Notes under the pieces: generated by a model
The model's input: the letters and a program-made list of their open reading frames with translations, nothing else
What the model was told of the DNA's origin: nothing
Database searches by the model: none
Position numbers and translations under genes: made by a program
In this document: positions 22,769 through 27,979 of the stretch, piece after piece
How positions within the stretch are numbered: position 1 is the stretch's first letter
Layout: each line of letters starts with the position of its first letter
NCBI GenBank assembly: GCA_039961735.1
Contig: JABRVX010000033.1
Coordinates: 1 to 32,654, forward strand
Length of the DNA stretch: 32,654 nt
Direction: 5' to 3'
Origin: Fimbriimonadia bacterium
GTDB lineage: Bacteria > Armatimonadota > Fimbriimonadia > Fimbriimonadales > JABRVX01

Positions 22769-23239
22769 CTATACCTTCCTATCCAGGGTCAGGGCCCCCG
22801 CCGGGGCCTTGCCATACGGAGTGGAGGGCTCACGAAGCGCTTGGCCGATCAGCATGAGCGTGCCAGAAACGTACGCCATCTCGTTCTCGATGAGGGCATG
22901 GTTGCGTATGAACGAGGCTCGAAGCGCGTCAGCCAGCCTCTCGGCAGTGCCGGCGAACCCGGAGAGCAACCGAGCATCCGAGGGGGGGAGTTTTCGGGCC
23001 ACATCTCTCAGTGTCGGCTCTGAGCCGACGGCCTGGGCGAGAGCGAAGATGGCCGAGCGCGCTTCCTCGTCTTTCTCCTGCAGCTTGCTGCGTGCAGACT
23101 CGATCTGTTCGAGGCATTCCTGGACTTGGTCGGTGTCGCGCGAGATCAGCGCCCGCTCCTGGCGCGCGAGCACTTGGAGCAACGTCTCTGCGCTCCGTGC
23201 CCATTCCGACCATAGTGTCGCGACGTGGCGAGGGGTCAT
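22769..23239 (-). CDS. flgN: FlgN-like export chaperone
   Basis: FlgN is the cytoplasmic chaperone of FlgK and FlgL. The 156-aa protein is almost entirely alpha-helical and charged (LLQVLARQERALISRDTDQV, then ECLEQIESARSKLQEKDEEA) and sits directly upstream of its expected clients. Similarity is mostly in helix pattern, so the call rests partly on position. The start ATG overlaps the stop of the flgJ-like gene (ATGA). Confidence 0.8.
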   Translation of the reverse strand: MTPRHVATLWSEWARSAETLLQVLARQERALISRDTDQVQECLEQIESARSKLQEKDEEARSAIFALAQAVGSEPTLRDVARKLPPSDARLLSGFAGTAERLADALRASFIRNHALIENEMAYVSGTLMLIGQALREPSTPYGKAPAGALTLDRKV

Positions 23240-23541
23240 CGTTCGCCCTCCGTTGCTTGTTCTCCGTCCAGCACTCGCTCCGCGAGTTGGCGATACAGAA
23301 TGTCGCCGATGCCGAAGCGGCCGGTTCTCGCGATTTCCTGCGCCACGGCCTGGTCCATGAGGTCCCGGTACATGGCCGTGGCCCCGTTCGAGGAATCCCC
23401 GAACGAGGCGGTTCGCCGCATCGCACTTAGTAGCTGCTGGACAAAGAGGGCCTCCACTCCTTGGGTGGCCTTACGAAGTTCATTCCCTTTCGCCGTCGTG
23501 TCTTTGATCGTCTGAGTTGCCGGGATTGCACCGGTAAGCAT
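23236..23541 (-). CDS. flgJ: FlgJ N-terminal-type rod-binding protein
   Basis: The 101-aa protein corresponds to the rod-binding/capping domain of FlgJ: KATQGVEALFVQQLLSAMRR, YRDLMDQAVAQEIARTGRFG, IGDILYRQLAERVL. The peptidoglycan-hydrolase domain of gammaproteobacterial FlgJ is absent, as in many other phyla, so a separate enzyme must open the wall. The start at 23541 has GGGGG 6 nt upstream; the longer frame to 23592 overlaps flgI and is not favoured. Confidence 0.92.
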   Translation of the reverse strand: MLTGAIPATQTIKDTTAKGNELRKATQGVEALFVQQLLSAMRRTASFGDSSNGATAMYRDLMDQAVAQEIARTGRFGIGDILYRQLAERVLDGEQATEGER

Positions 23542-23551
23542 CTCTTGCCCC

Positions 23552-24694
23552 CTATTGGATCTCGATGGTCGCCTGGAGTGCGCCGGCCCCACGCAGCGCC
23601 TGCAGGATGGCGATCAGGTCCCGCGGCGACACCCCGAGTTGGTTCAGAGCCTTGACCAAGTCGGCCACGGTGGGCATGTCGTCCAGCCAGGCCACCTTCG
23701 CTTTCGGCTCTTTCACCTTTACCGCCGTGTTGTCGAAGGGTACGCCCGGTCCGCCTTCGGCAGTGAAAGATGGCGGCTGGGATACCTCGGTGGTCTTCGT
23801 GATCGTGACGGTGATGCCGCCATGGGCCACGGCAGCGGGCCGGATTCTCACGTTCTCGCCGATCACGATGGTGCCCGTGCGCTCGTTGACCACGATCTTC
23901 GCAGGAGTGTCAGAGGTAACCGCGAGTAGTTCCAACTGGGATACCAGTCGGACCGGGTCCATGAGCCGCGAGTCGGGCGGCGTGACGCGAATGGTGGCGC
24001 CGTCCACGGCTAGCGCCTCGTACTCCGGGTAGGCCGTCATGATAGCTTCAGCCACATTGCTCGCCGTGGTGAAGTCCGGCTGCCGTAGGTGGATGAACAA
24101 GTTGTTGTCGGTGACGAACGTGGATGGCACCGCCCTCTCCACGATCGCCCCTTCCGGGATGCGCCCAACAGTGACATGATTCTTCTGCACCGAGCTGCCA
24201 CCGGCACCGAAGTTGAAGCCCCCGATGCTAACAGGTCCCGCAGCTACGGCGAACGCCTCGCGCGAGTTGCCGGCTGCGTAGAGGGGAGTCTGGAGCAGCG
24301 TGCCACCTTGTAAGCTTTTTGCATCTCCCATGCTGCTCACGGTAACGTCTATGTGAGTTCCGGGCTGTGCGAAGGCAGGCAACTCCGCGGTCACCAGGAC
24401 TATGGCAACGTTCTTCAGGGACATGCTTGCGGGATTGACGGATAGACCGAAGCGCTCCAAGGCGTTCGCAATCGCTTGTTGCGTCTGAGGGGTACTCTTC
24501 GTGTCACCCGTGCCTTCCAGACCTACCACCACGCCGACACCAGTCAGTTGGTTGCTGCGTGCGCCTCGGATGACGGCGATGTCCTTCAGTCTGACTGCGC
24601 GGGATGCCGGATCGTCGGCGCTATTCCCATTGGCAGGCTCGGTCTGAGCCCATCCCACGTTCGCTAACAGGAGTGCGATGACAAGTGCACGCAT
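23552..24694 (-). CDS. flgI: FlgI flagellar P-ring protein
   Basis: FlgI forms the P-ring around the rod in the peptidoglycan layer. The 380-aa protein has a signal peptide (MRALVIALLLANVGWA) and family motifs RLKDIAVIRGARSNQLTGVG, VGLEGTGD, NVAIVLVTAELPAFAQPG, HIDVTVSSMGDAKSLQGGTL and RTGTIVIGENVRI. Its start codon shares one base with the flgH stop, so translation is coupled. Confidence 0.98.
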   Translation of the reverse strand: MRALVIALLLANVGWAQTEPANGNSADDPASRAVRLKDIAVIRGARSNQLTGVGVVVGLEGTGDTKSTPQTQQAIANALERFGLSVNPASMSLKNVAIVLVTAELPAFAQPGTHIDVTVSSMGDAKSLQGGTLLQTPLYAAGNSREAFAVAAGPVSIGGFNFGAGGSSVQKNHVTVGRIPEGAIVERAVPSTFVTDNNLFIHLRQPDFTTASNVAEAIMTAYPEYEALAVDGATIRVTPPDSRLMDPVRLVSQLELLAVTSDTPAKIVVNERTGTIVIGENVRIRPAAVAHGGITVTITKTTEVSQPPSFTAEGGPGVPFDNTAVKVKEPKAKVAWLDDMPTVADLVKALNQLGVSPRDLIAILQALRGAGALQATIEIQ

Positions 24695-25281
24695 CAGAAC
24701 AACCCTCCGAACAACCCCTTGAACAGCCGCACGATTAGTCCTTCGCGCTGCTTGTCACCGATGATGCCCTTGCCCTCGAACCTGATTTCGGCGTCACCTA
24801 CCAGATAGGAAGGAATCGTGTTGTCCGAGGAAATGTCCTTGGTGCGCACGATGCCGGTGATGAGCAACTTCTGCGTCTCCTTGTTGACCATCACGTCGCG
24901 CTTGCCCTCGATCACCAACGTCCCGTTGGGCAACACCTGCTTCACTACCACGGTCATCTTCGCGATCAAACTACCGCTACGGGTGGTACTACCGGTCGCC
25001 TGGCTGCTCATCTGGCCGCTCGCGCCCAGCTCTGGCAGGATGTCCTTCAGGATCGGGCCCAGCCCGGCGGTAGTAGATGCGGATTCGCTTTTCGATGTGC
25101 TAGTATCGGCCTTCGACGATGCCTGGCTACTCTCCATGATGAGCACCGTCAGCACGTCCCCCACCTCGCGCGCCTTGAAGTCCGAGATGTAGGAACCCGC
25201 TCCATCCGACCACAGCGAACCGTTCTTCTGCGCGCACGCACCGGTCGCTAACAACATGGCTGCAAGTGCAACTAATCTCAT
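24694..25281 (-). CDS. flgH: FlgH flagellar L-ring lipoprotein
   Basis: FlgH forms the L-ring in the outer membrane. The 195-aa protein has a lipoprotein-type signal (MRLVALAAMLLATGAC, Cys16; the -3 residue is Thr, slightly atypical), then SLWSDGAGSYISDFKAREVG, DVLTVLIMESSQAS, and the conserved C-terminal half NGTLVIEGKRDVMVNKETQ, IPSYLVGDAEIRFEGKGII. The frame is open upstream to 25557, but that part overlaps flgA. ATG at 25281 overlaps the flgA stop (ATGA). This gene shows that the organism has an outer membrane. Confidence 0.97.
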   Translation of the reverse strand: MRLVALAAMLLATGACAQKNGSLWSDGAGSYISDFKAREVGDVLTVLIMESSQASSKADTSTSKSESASTTAGLGPILKDILPELGASGQMSSQATGSTTRSGSLIAKMTVVVKQVLPNGTLVIEGKRDVMVNKETQKLLITGIVRTKDISSDNTIPSYLVGDAEIRFEGKGIIGDKQREGLIVRLFKGLFGGLF

Positions 25282-26360
25282 AATGTCACCATCACAGTAC
25301 CTGCATCGCTCAGTTCGCCACTGAGCATCTTCTTCGTGGAAGGTACATACACCGTCACAGCGTCTCCCACTGCACCGGCGGATCGCAGCACGCCCTGCGT
25401 CTGCACGCTCAGGCCACCACTCTGCAGCACCACCGTAACCTGAGAGCCAACCTTGACCATTCCGGTCTTCGGCTTGGCGACGGTAGTCTGCTGGAAGCGG
25501 ACCTGTACGGTGGCAGCTGTCCGTCCATCCACTTGCACTGCAACTGGTACGGACCAACCCAAGCCACTGCGCACGGGAGCCCCCGGCATCAGCACGTACT
25601 GCCCTACCGGCGCAGTGACTGCGCGTGCGACCACGCTGGGCACAAGCCGTTCAGCCTCGACCGGGTCTGTCAGAGCACGGCGGGCCGCCTGGATGATCTC
25701 CGCCTGGGGTATCTCCTGGCTGGGGCGTGACACACGTATCGTCTCAGGAAGCTCGACCCGTGTCGCCGCAGTCGCCAAGCCGGCAGCTCGCAGCTTCACC
25801 ATCACCTCGCCGCGGGTCAGAATCCGGCTGCCACCCGGCAGAGGACCCGCCCCCACCGGAAGCTCCGCGGCCTGAGTAACCAACGTTTCGGTGCCGCTCA
25901 GCTCCGCGATCTCGCCCAAGAGCACCCGGTCACCCCGGGTCTCCGCCGACAGCCTGCCCACGATGTGGAGCCCAGCGCCCTTCTCCACCGGCGGTGCCAG
26001 CACCGCTCCAGCGTGCTCGATGATCGCACCAAAGCCCTTCGACCCGGGTTGACCAATCACCGGTGCCGCCTGTCCAGGGGAGAAGCGAGCCAGGCTCACG
26101 CACCCGATCTCCCGCGTCAGTCCACTAACCGTGGCGACGATGGTGCCGTCTGACTGCACCTTCAGGGCTGTCGTCCCGGTCGGGATCAGTACCGGAGGGT
26201 CCAAAGCCGGGCCCAATGTCGAGCGCAGCGGCTTGCCTTCCTCGACGACCAGCCGGACCTCACGCACGTAGACGGGGCGTTCGCCATCCAGAAGCCTAAT
26301 CAGTCCCTCGCCCTGAACGGCCCAGTCCACCTGTACCTGCGGCAGCAGTAGCCAGATCAT
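25278..26360 (-). CDS. flgA: FlgA P-ring chaperone with N-terminal FlgG-like segment
   Basis: FlgA assists P-ring assembly in the periplasm. The C-terminal 220 residues of this 360-aa protein match FlgA: LLGEIAELSGTETL, then ELPVGAGPLPGGSRILTRGE, the SAF-like part PVGQYVLMPGAPV, and the terminal beta domain with MVKVGSQVTVVL and STKKMLSGELSDAGTVMV. The first 140 residues are not FlgA. They align along their length with FlgG next door: VDWAVQGEGLIRLL against YDLAIEGDGFFKVLL, VLIPTGTTALKVQSDGT against ILVPSDAISFTVGSDGT, VSLARFSPG against LLLARFPNP. The rod helices of FlgG are missing. There is no normal signal peptide, only MIWLLLPQ, so export is unclear. The start has GGAG 7 nt upstream. Confidence 0.9.
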   Translation of the reverse strand: MIWLLLPQVQVDWAVQGEGLIRLLDGERPVYVREVRLVVEEGKPLRSTLGPALDPPVLIPTGTTALKVQSDGTIVATVSGLTREIGCVSLARFSPGQAAPVIGQPGSKGFGAIIEHAGAVLAPPVEKGAGLHIVGRLSAETRGDRVLLGEIAELSGTETLVTQAAELPVGAGPLPGGSRILTRGEVMVKLRAAGLATAATRVELPETIRVSRPSQEIPQAEIIQAARRALTDPVEAERLVPSVVARAVTAPVGQYVLMPGAPVRSGLGWSVPVAVQVDGRTAATVQVRFQQTTVAKPKTGMVKVGSQVTVVLQSGGLSVQTQGVLRSAGAVGDAVTVYVPSTKKMLSGELSDAGTVMVTL

Positions 26361-26371
26361 CGGTCAGCTCC

Positions 26372-27160
26372 CTAACGCTTCAGGTTGTTGGTCAGGCCGA
26401 GCATCTCGTCCGCGGTGGTGATGGCCTTCGAGTTGACCTCGTACGCTCGCTGGGCCAAGATCATCCGCACCATCTCTTCGACGATCTGCACGTTGGAGTT
26501 CTCGATGGCGTACTGAGCCACGGAGCCGAGGCCGTCGGTTCCGGGAGCGCCTTCGATGGCATCACCGCTGGCTGCACTGACTCGGAACAGGTTGTGCCCA
26601 ATGCGCTGCAATCCCGCAGGATTGGGAAAGCGAGCCAGAAGCAACTGGCCGAGGTTCTGTATGGTCGTATCCCCAGCCACCTGCACGTTGACTGTTCCGT
26701 CGGAGCCCACTGTGAAGGAGATGGCATCCGAGGGCACGAGGATGTCGGGTTGCAACGGGTACCCGTCACTGGTCACCATGCGGCCGGTGGCATCCACCTT
26801 GAACTGCCCGTCGCGGGTGAACGCTTCCGAACCGTCGGGCAGCAGCACCTTGAAGAACCCATCACCCTCGATAGCCAGATCGTACTTGTTGGAGGTCTGC
26901 TGCAGCGGCCCTTGCTCCAGCATGGTGGTGGTCGCCACCGTGCGCGAGCCGAGACCTACCTGGAGGGCGACCGGTCGGGTCGCGTCCTGCCCATTCTGCG
27001 CACCCTGGCTGCGTAGAACCTGATACAGCGTGTCTTGGAACTCCGCCCGCGAGTGCTTGAAGCCGTTGGTGTTGACGTTCGCCAGATTGTTGGCGATCAC
27101 GTCCAAGTTAAACTGCTGCGCGGCCATGCCCGCAGCTGCGGTATACAGCGATCTCATCAT
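26372..27160 (-). CDS. flgG: FlgG distal rod protein
   Basis: FlgG builds the distal rod of the flagellum. The 262-aa protein is standard length: N-terminal MRSLYTAAAGMAAQQFNLDV, IANNLANVNTNGFK; central FlgG domain YDLAIEGDGFFKVLLPDGSE; C-terminal YAIENSNVQIVEEMVRMILA, QRAYEVNSKAITTADEMLGL. GGAGG lies 9 nt before the start. FlgA follows after 11 nt. Confidence 0.98.
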   Translation of the reverse strand: MMRSLYTAAAGMAAQQFNLDVIANNLANVNTNGFKHSRAEFQDTLYQVLRSQGAQNGQDATRPVALQVGLGSRTVATTTMLEQGPLQQTSNKYDLAIEGDGFFKVLLPDGSEAFTRDGQFKVDATGRMVTSDGYPLQPDILVPSDAISFTVGSDGTVNVQVAGDTTIQNLGQLLLARFPNPAGLQRIGHNLFRVSAASGDAIEGAPGTDGLGSVAQYAIENSNVQIVEEMVRMILAQRAYEVNSKAITTADEMLGLTNNLKR

Positions 27161-27253: not shown

Positions 27254-27979
27254 CTAGCCTAATCGCGCGAGGTCGTTGACTGCCTTCTGCAACGTCTCGT
27301 CCTGCGCCTGAACGACGCGCTGGTTCGCTTCGAACACGCGCAGGGTCTCCATCATGCGGACCATCTCGGTGACAGCGTTCACGTTGGACGCTTCGAGATA
27401 GCCCGGCTCCAGTCGTGGATTGGCGAGCGGCTTCGCGGCACCTACGAACAGGCCGTTCCCGGCCTTCGTGAGGTCGCCGGTGACGATCGCCAGTCGGTCC
27501 AAAGTCGCGCCCCCGGCCTGCACCAAACCAGAGGGGTCAATCGTTGGTGTCGCTCCGCGCGGCACTTGGATGGGTCCGGTTGTGCCCAGGACGAGGTGCC
27601 CGTCGCGAGTCGTCAGCTTGCCGGACGCGTCCACCTGGAAGGAGCCGGCTCGGGTGTAGCGCACTCCGGCGGGCGTCTGGACGCTGAAATAGCCGTCGCC
27701 TTCGATGGCGACGTCCAGCGCGTTGCCCGTCGCGATCAGGTCGCCCTGCGTTCCCAACATCGTTCGGCCCTCGACGATGGCGCCTCCGCCAAGCCGCCCG
27801 ACCGTACGCGTGACGGCCTCGCCGGGCGCGTGGACTTCTCGGTCCAGCGCCTCACGGAAACTCAGTCGGTCGCTCTTGAAAGCCGTGCTGTTCGCATTCG
27901 CGAGATTGCTGGCGATGACGTCCAGTGCCAACTGCTGGGCGTGCATCCCCGTCGCTCCCGCATAGATTCCCCGCGTCAT
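27254..27979 (-). CDS. flgF: FlgF-like proximal rod protein
   Basis: The 241-aa protein is a second rod/hook family protein and, by position just upstream of flgG, most likely FlgF. Motifs are GIYAGATGMHAQQLALDVIA, SNLANANSTAFKSDRLSF, DVAIEGDGYFSVQTPAGVRY and EASNVNAVTEMVRMMETLRV, FEANQRVV. The frame is open upstream to 28309, but that part lies on the opposite strand of another gene; 27979 is the natural start, with a poor Shine-Dalgarno. It heads the flagellar operon; flgB, flgC and fliE are not here. The 93-nt gap to flgG holds a small hairpin (CCCCG/CGGGG near 27228-27242 in plus coordinates). Confidence 0.92.
   Translation of the reverse strand: MTRGIYAGATGMHAQQLALDVIASNLANANSTAFKSDRLSFREALDREVHAPGEAVTRTVGRLGGGAIVEGRTMLGTQGDLIATGNALDVAIEGDGYFSVQTPAGVRYTRAGSFQVDASGKLTTRDGHLVLGTTGPIQVPRGATPTIDPSGLVQAGGATLDRLAIVTGDLTKAGNGLFVGAAKPLANPRLEPGYLEASNVNAVTEMVRMMETLRVFEANQRVVQAQDETLQKAVNDLARLG

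Follow-up and report, generated by a model that had tools for sequence, protein, structure and literature searches.

Organization of the flg locus

The window (the whole stretch of 32,654 nucleotides analyzed here, from a Fimbriimonadia bacterium) carries flagellar genes on its minus strand in the order flgF-flgG-flgA-flgH-flgI. Details of these genes, of the segments that make up the flgA product and of two permease genes discussed below are given in Table 1. A short FlgJ-like ORF lies downstream of flgI (positions 23236-23592, minus strand); judged by eye it comprises the rod-binding part only, the muramidase domain being absent.

Table 1. Genes and protein segments considered in this work (window positions unless a locus is named)
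Feature	Position	Strand	Remarks
flgA	25278-26360	-	360 aa; separated from the preceding flgG by 11 nt
FlgA leader, residues 1-8 (MIWLLLPQ)	26337-26360	-	no K/R; hydrophobic run of 6
FlgG D1-like segment of FlgA, residues ~9-115	26016-26336	-	corresponds to Salmonella FlgG ~91-215, without D0/Dc helices
FlgA linker, residues 116-131	25968-26015	-	14% mean identity across the family; pLDDT partly low
FlgA proper, residues 132-360	25281-25967	-	ChapFlgA / flgA_cterm match in last 60 residues
flgG, intact distal-rod protein, 262 aa	26372-27160	-	own D1 at about 26507-26887
flgH, L-ring lipoprotein	24694-25281	-	ATG overlaps flgA stop codon
flgI, P-ring protein, FlgA client	23552-24694	-	rod-facing lysines (Salmonella K63, K95) both kept
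flgF-like rod gene	27254-27970	-	start approximate
AmpG-like permease with insert	L163:2094-4007	+	found with FlgA-N profile
AmpG-like permease with insert	L162:1569-3383	-	found with FlgA-N profile

The C-terminal part of the flgA product is recognizable as FlgA. ChapFlgA (PF13144) matches residues 300-358 (E=2.4e-10) with 40.9 bits, above its gathering score of 23.8, whereas TIGR03170 (flgA_cterm) reaches 39 bits, below its cut-off of 54.65, in a match limited to the last 60 residues. A profile built from 30 fused relatives finds Salmonella FlgA (3tee) with E=2e-6, and a Foldseek comparison of the predicted structure with Salmonella FlgA (3tee and 3vjp) returns E-values of 3.2e-4 and 1.1e-3. 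Predicted fold, profile and synteny place the protein in FlgA despite the low TIGR03170 score, and we infer that this part acts as other FlgAs do.

A FlgG D1 domain at the front of FlgA

Of particular interest is what precedes the FlgA part. Taken on their own, residues 10-94 match the FlgG model TIGR02488 (E=1.3e-7) and the FlgE/F/G D1 family PF22692 (6e-4, under the Pfam cut-off); BLASTP aligns the protein with the neighboring FlgG over 128 columns at 27% identity (E=2e-12), and the profile of the 30 fused relatives finds Salmonella FlgG from residue 91 onward (E=9e-15). Measured as a full-length FlgG the protein scores 31.4 bits against TIGR02488, below the cut-off of 252.75, and a domain profile search of it matches neither Flg_bb_rod nor Flg_bbr_C. 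An AlphaFold2 model (pLDDT 90.7) has a pTM of 0.56, a value that flexibly joined domains would give; its best structure matches are FlgE/FlgG D1 domains (rmsd of 2.4 Å to the FlgG crystal fragment 6jf2), with FlgA structures next. The poorer model of a second fused FlgA of the order (pLDDT 80.6) again finds 6jf2, with an rmsd of 1.9 Å. The TIGR02488, family-profile and structure matches exclude a chance match or a misread boundary.

Sequence, profile and predicted structure thus concur that residues ~9-115 are a complete FlgG domain D1 minus the D0 and Dc helices: in Salmonella FlgG this domain comprises residues 91-222 (PMC5288503), so the copied part is close to one entire structural domain. 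A sequence-only reading of this DNA had aligned residues 1-140 with the center of FlgG and had ordinary FlgA begin at residue 140. The resemblance holds for the D1-like segment; positions 25941-26015 are not FlgG-like, and ordinary FlgA does follow, but from near residue 132, behind a linker. The same reading had noted correctly that the rod-forming terminal helices are missing, and had known of no FlgG-FlgA fusion; we likewise found no published description of a FlgG D1-FlgA fusion in the literature.

Distribution, gain and loss

Surveys of the class (113 genomes) and of the phylum Armatimonadota (291 genomes) show that the architecture is widespread: fused FlgA occurs in three families of the Fimbriimonadales, f1 (that of the window), f2 and f3, in ~76 genomes by a hand count that includes full-length matches. 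The N-terminal extension that the sequence-only reading proposed to look for in relatives is therefore common in this order, and a contig artefact is ruled out. Profile searches confirm the domain at 72 distinct surveyed loci, the other surveyed loci being without it. It is absent from the FlgA of families f4 and f5 and of three single genomes (G007 in f2, G010 and G011 in f3), and from all 15 loci sampled in other Armatimonadota classes. A scan of contigs across genomes gave no matches with the window FlgA as query; with one motif of its relatives it gave 20 loci, which belong to Armatimonadota or Fimbriimonadales wherever the taxon is named. Among the carriers are Uphvl-Ar1 and Ar2, for which probable motility and complete flagellar pathways have been described (PMC5629041). 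The fused form is a FlgA variant undescribed in the literature that we found, and it is spread over most of one order.

Two further features of unfused flgA genes were seen in these surveys. At most loci of family f4 (L008, L009, L010, L013, L021, L026, L027 and L030) flgA has no flgG ahead of it and is the first gene of flgA-flgH-flgI, an arrangement that sets them apart from the other loci sampled in the phylum. In the other classes (L142-L156) flgA ORFs are mostly ~290-400 aa, and the match to the Fimbriimonadales profile often stops near position 322 of 383, the C-terminal part looking diverged or different.

Mapped onto a tree built from FlgH, FlgI, FlgG and the FlgA core, the distribution requires three changes, which with the outgroup become one gain and two losses: the domain was gained once, in the common ancestor of the three families after its split from the two sister families, and was later lost from FlgA at least twice. 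Within the fused clade the window branches off first. In the three domain-losing genomes a profile search for a stand-alone D1 protein gave FlgG alone.

The D1-like domains of fused FlgAs group together as a single clade (100/100) with a long stem, and their profile is closest to FlgG. AU tests reject neither an origin from the FlgG of the order itself (p=0.24) nor grouping with FlgF (p=0.32). Partial duplication of flgG into its neighbor, as suggested from the sequence, is accordingly plausible, although the tree itself names no parent; the added domain descends from a rod-protein D1, with FlgG the most likely parent. Mean pairwise identity is 0.33 in the D1-like part, 0.345 in the FlgA C-terminus, 0.26 in the other FlgA part and 0.14 in the linker: the domain has been conserved over the long term as strongly as the FlgA C-terminus. 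This equal conservation, together with retention in ~76 genomes, argues against seeing the domain as a leftover of duplication that is neutral or at most stabilizing, a view with which its repeated loss would agree and which we regard as quite unlikely.

Leader sequences and export

An in-frame TGA two codons upstream of the flgA start leaves no room for a longer start and rules out a misassigned start codon. Lysine or arginine within residues 2-8 is found in 8 of 72 fused FlgAs, compared with 28 of 38 unfused FlgA rows (a locus is repeated in five of these rows). The median hydropathy peak of the leader is 2.59 for fused FlgA, 2.88 for unfused FlgA and 0.92 for FlgG N-termini. At 1.78 the leader of the window is among the weakest of the fused set, a weak signal peptide at best. 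The oddity of the signal peptide, remarked upon from the sequence, thus stands for the short, mostly uncharged leaders and for the window in particular; the leaders of most relatives are nonetheless hydrophobic and Sec-like.

Could fused FlgA instead leave the cell by the flagellar type III route, by way of its hydrophobic N-terminus, and be delivered to the rod tip in the manner of FlgJ? FlhA is present in the window genome, residues 2-8 are free of K/R in 64 of the 72 fused proteins, and the export signal of early subunits includes a hydrophobic N-terminus. However, such signals belong to D0, at the N-terminus (PMC8983047); FlgG ~91-215, the part that was copied, does not take them in, and fused FlgA thus lacks the export signals of FlgG. 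The leaders also lie far above FlgG N-termini in hydropathy, some fused FlgAs have classical signal peptides with K/R, uncharged leaders occur likewise on the unfused FlgAs of genera g41 and g42, and lineages without the domain have ordinary FlgA signal peptides. Type III export, which the sequence-only reading had entertained, is for these reasons unsupported and very improbable, though conceivable for the window protein; export by Sec is likely.

A related domain in an AmpG-like permease

The profile of the fused domain also finds an insert in an AmpG-family MFS permease, with E-values down to 6.8e-14. The insert scores 31-56 bits (no more than 6.8 bits after shuffling) and lies in a loop that helix order predicts to be periplasmic. 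In addition to the two permeases of Table 1, insert-bearing copies occur at L165, L167, L169-L172 and L176; all come from part of family f3, in which related permeases minus the insert also occur. AmpG inserts and FlgA N-terminal domains form one clade against FlgG (100/99). No insert-bearing AmpG-like permease was found in the window genome. In one carrier of the insert, G015, neither FlgG nor FlhA is detectable, and so the domain can serve a use unrelated to the rod: a descendant of D1 seems to function away from the flagellum. For an axial domain of the flagellum to have passed from the rod into an unrelated transporter would be an unusual instance of such a domain being adopted elsewhere.

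Other permease ORFs of 647-700 aa (L166, L173-L175, L178-L182 and L192) are as long as those that bear the insert and have no match to the domain profile; L172 is the exception among the long permeases in that the profile does match. Those without a match may hold a diverged or a different insert.

The existence of a descendant outside the flagellum raises the possibility that the derived D1 binds a cell-wall ligand, being a periplasmic module for peptidoglycan or muropeptides that holds FlgA at the site of the P-ring and feeds the permease its substrate. Both the profile match to the permease loop and the common clade of inserts and FlgA domains are consistent with this, as is a gene for a PF00144 beta-lactamase-family protein that follows the permease at both of the two loci read; furthermore, domain D2 of FlgA has been proposed to be peptidoglycan-targeting (PMC4895218). 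On the other side, two of the permeases score 148.5 and 131.6 bits against the AmpG model, well under the curated cut-off of 350, and the permease with insert was not found in the window genome. Nor do we know of any peptidoglycan binding by FlgG D1 itself. We consider such a module possible but rather unlikely, and would say the same of its evolutionary extension, in which a rod D1 would have become a free-standing periplasmic adaptor, recruited first by the P-ring chaperone and then by an AmpG-like permease, that binds a cell-wall ligand and outlives the loss of flagella. If true, the adaptor reading would tie ring assembly to the peptidoglycan layer.

Charge of the fused domain and proposed docking on the rod

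Charge is what most clearly separates the fused domain from its presumed parent. On average a fused D1 contains 12.5 K/R and 12.0 D/E, a FlgG D1 of the order 5.9 K/R and 11.7 D/E, giving a net charge of about 0 compared with -5.3. When the two are compared within a genome, the fused D1 is the more positive one in 67 of 69 pairs, although these pairs are not independent since the change arose once. New conserved basic positions have appeared: the position of FlgG residue 104 is R in 66 of 70 fused domains, that of residue 172 K or R in 59 of 70. The window's own domain is neutral (10 K/R, 10 D/E).

The surface of the distal rod is highly negative and is contacted by K63 and K95 of FlgI (PMC8298488); polymerization leaves the main chain of FlgG D1 unchanged, and D1 takes part in packing along each of the rod's three helical directions (PMC5288503). 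One could imagine that the D1 of FlgA mimics the rod surface, covering the rod-facing side of FlgI and, until displaced by the real rod, keeping the ring from closing too early. The two FlgI lysines are indeed mostly kept in fused genomes (both in the window), and the positions of FlgG Asp154 and Asp109 are acidic in 49 and 42 of 70 fused domains, respectively. Overall acidity, however, is lost, 48 of 70 have leucine in place of Glu203, the window has Gly at the Asp109 position, and the DG turns are perhaps kept purely for structure. We regard mimicry as improbable: given the highly negative rod surface, a domain that docks on the rod is a better fit than one that imitates it.

Our preferred reading, to which we assign a probability of about 0.4, takes up the reasonable suggestion of the sequence-only reading that the chaperone docks on the distal rod: the D1-like part would serve for targeting and dock FlgA on the acidic rod. 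Fused FlgA would be exported by Sec, as other FlgAs are, on its short uncharged leader. The FlgA part would bind FlgI, its putative cargo, and the D1-like part would carry FlgA with its bound FlgI to the distal rod as it forms, where a D1 scaffold with conserved arginines and lysines would pack on the acidic D1 surface or on the open end of the FlgG rod. FlgI would then be set free at the site of P-ring formation; FlgA, whose D1-like part has no D0/Dc helices, would not be incorporated into the rod and would be free to leave.

Several observations speak against docking. G007 has lost the domain while keeping its FlhA in full, so that this genome, at any rate, can do without it; the window's domain is merely neutral and its leader is a poor signal peptide; and the descendant in the AmpG-like permease extends to G015. 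It is not yet understood by what means FlgI is directed to the growing flagellum, or how FlgA brings it to the correct site on the rod (PMC4895218). The chaperone's natural fusion to a rod-surface domain, retained in most of an order but lost on two or more occasions, provides a ready-made means to probe FlgI placement.

Comparison with known systems

The protein resembles FlgA (PF13144, TIGR03170; 3tee, 3vjp) in its C-terminal ~230 residues, in its place ahead of flgH-flgI and in predicted fold, and differs in the extra ~107-residue FlgG D1 in front, in the short, uncharged leader and in a C-terminal score under the NCBIfam cut-off. With FlgG (TIGR02488; 6jf2, 7cbm) it shares D1 (~91-215) and its predicted fold. 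Unlike FlgG, the segment is part of the FlgA gene, has lost the acidic surface and has neither the D0/Dc helices nor the L-stretch, and so cannot polymerize. The AmpG-like MFS permease of Fimbriimonadaceae (L163, L162 and others) has a homologous domain that groups with that of FlgA against FlgG, but there it is inserted in the loop of a membrane transporter, one not found in the window genome. FlgJ, the rod cap, in some bacteria fused to a muramidase, is similar in that a rod-binding domain is joined to a periplasmic assembly factor; the domains, however, are unrelated, and FlgJ travels by the type III route.
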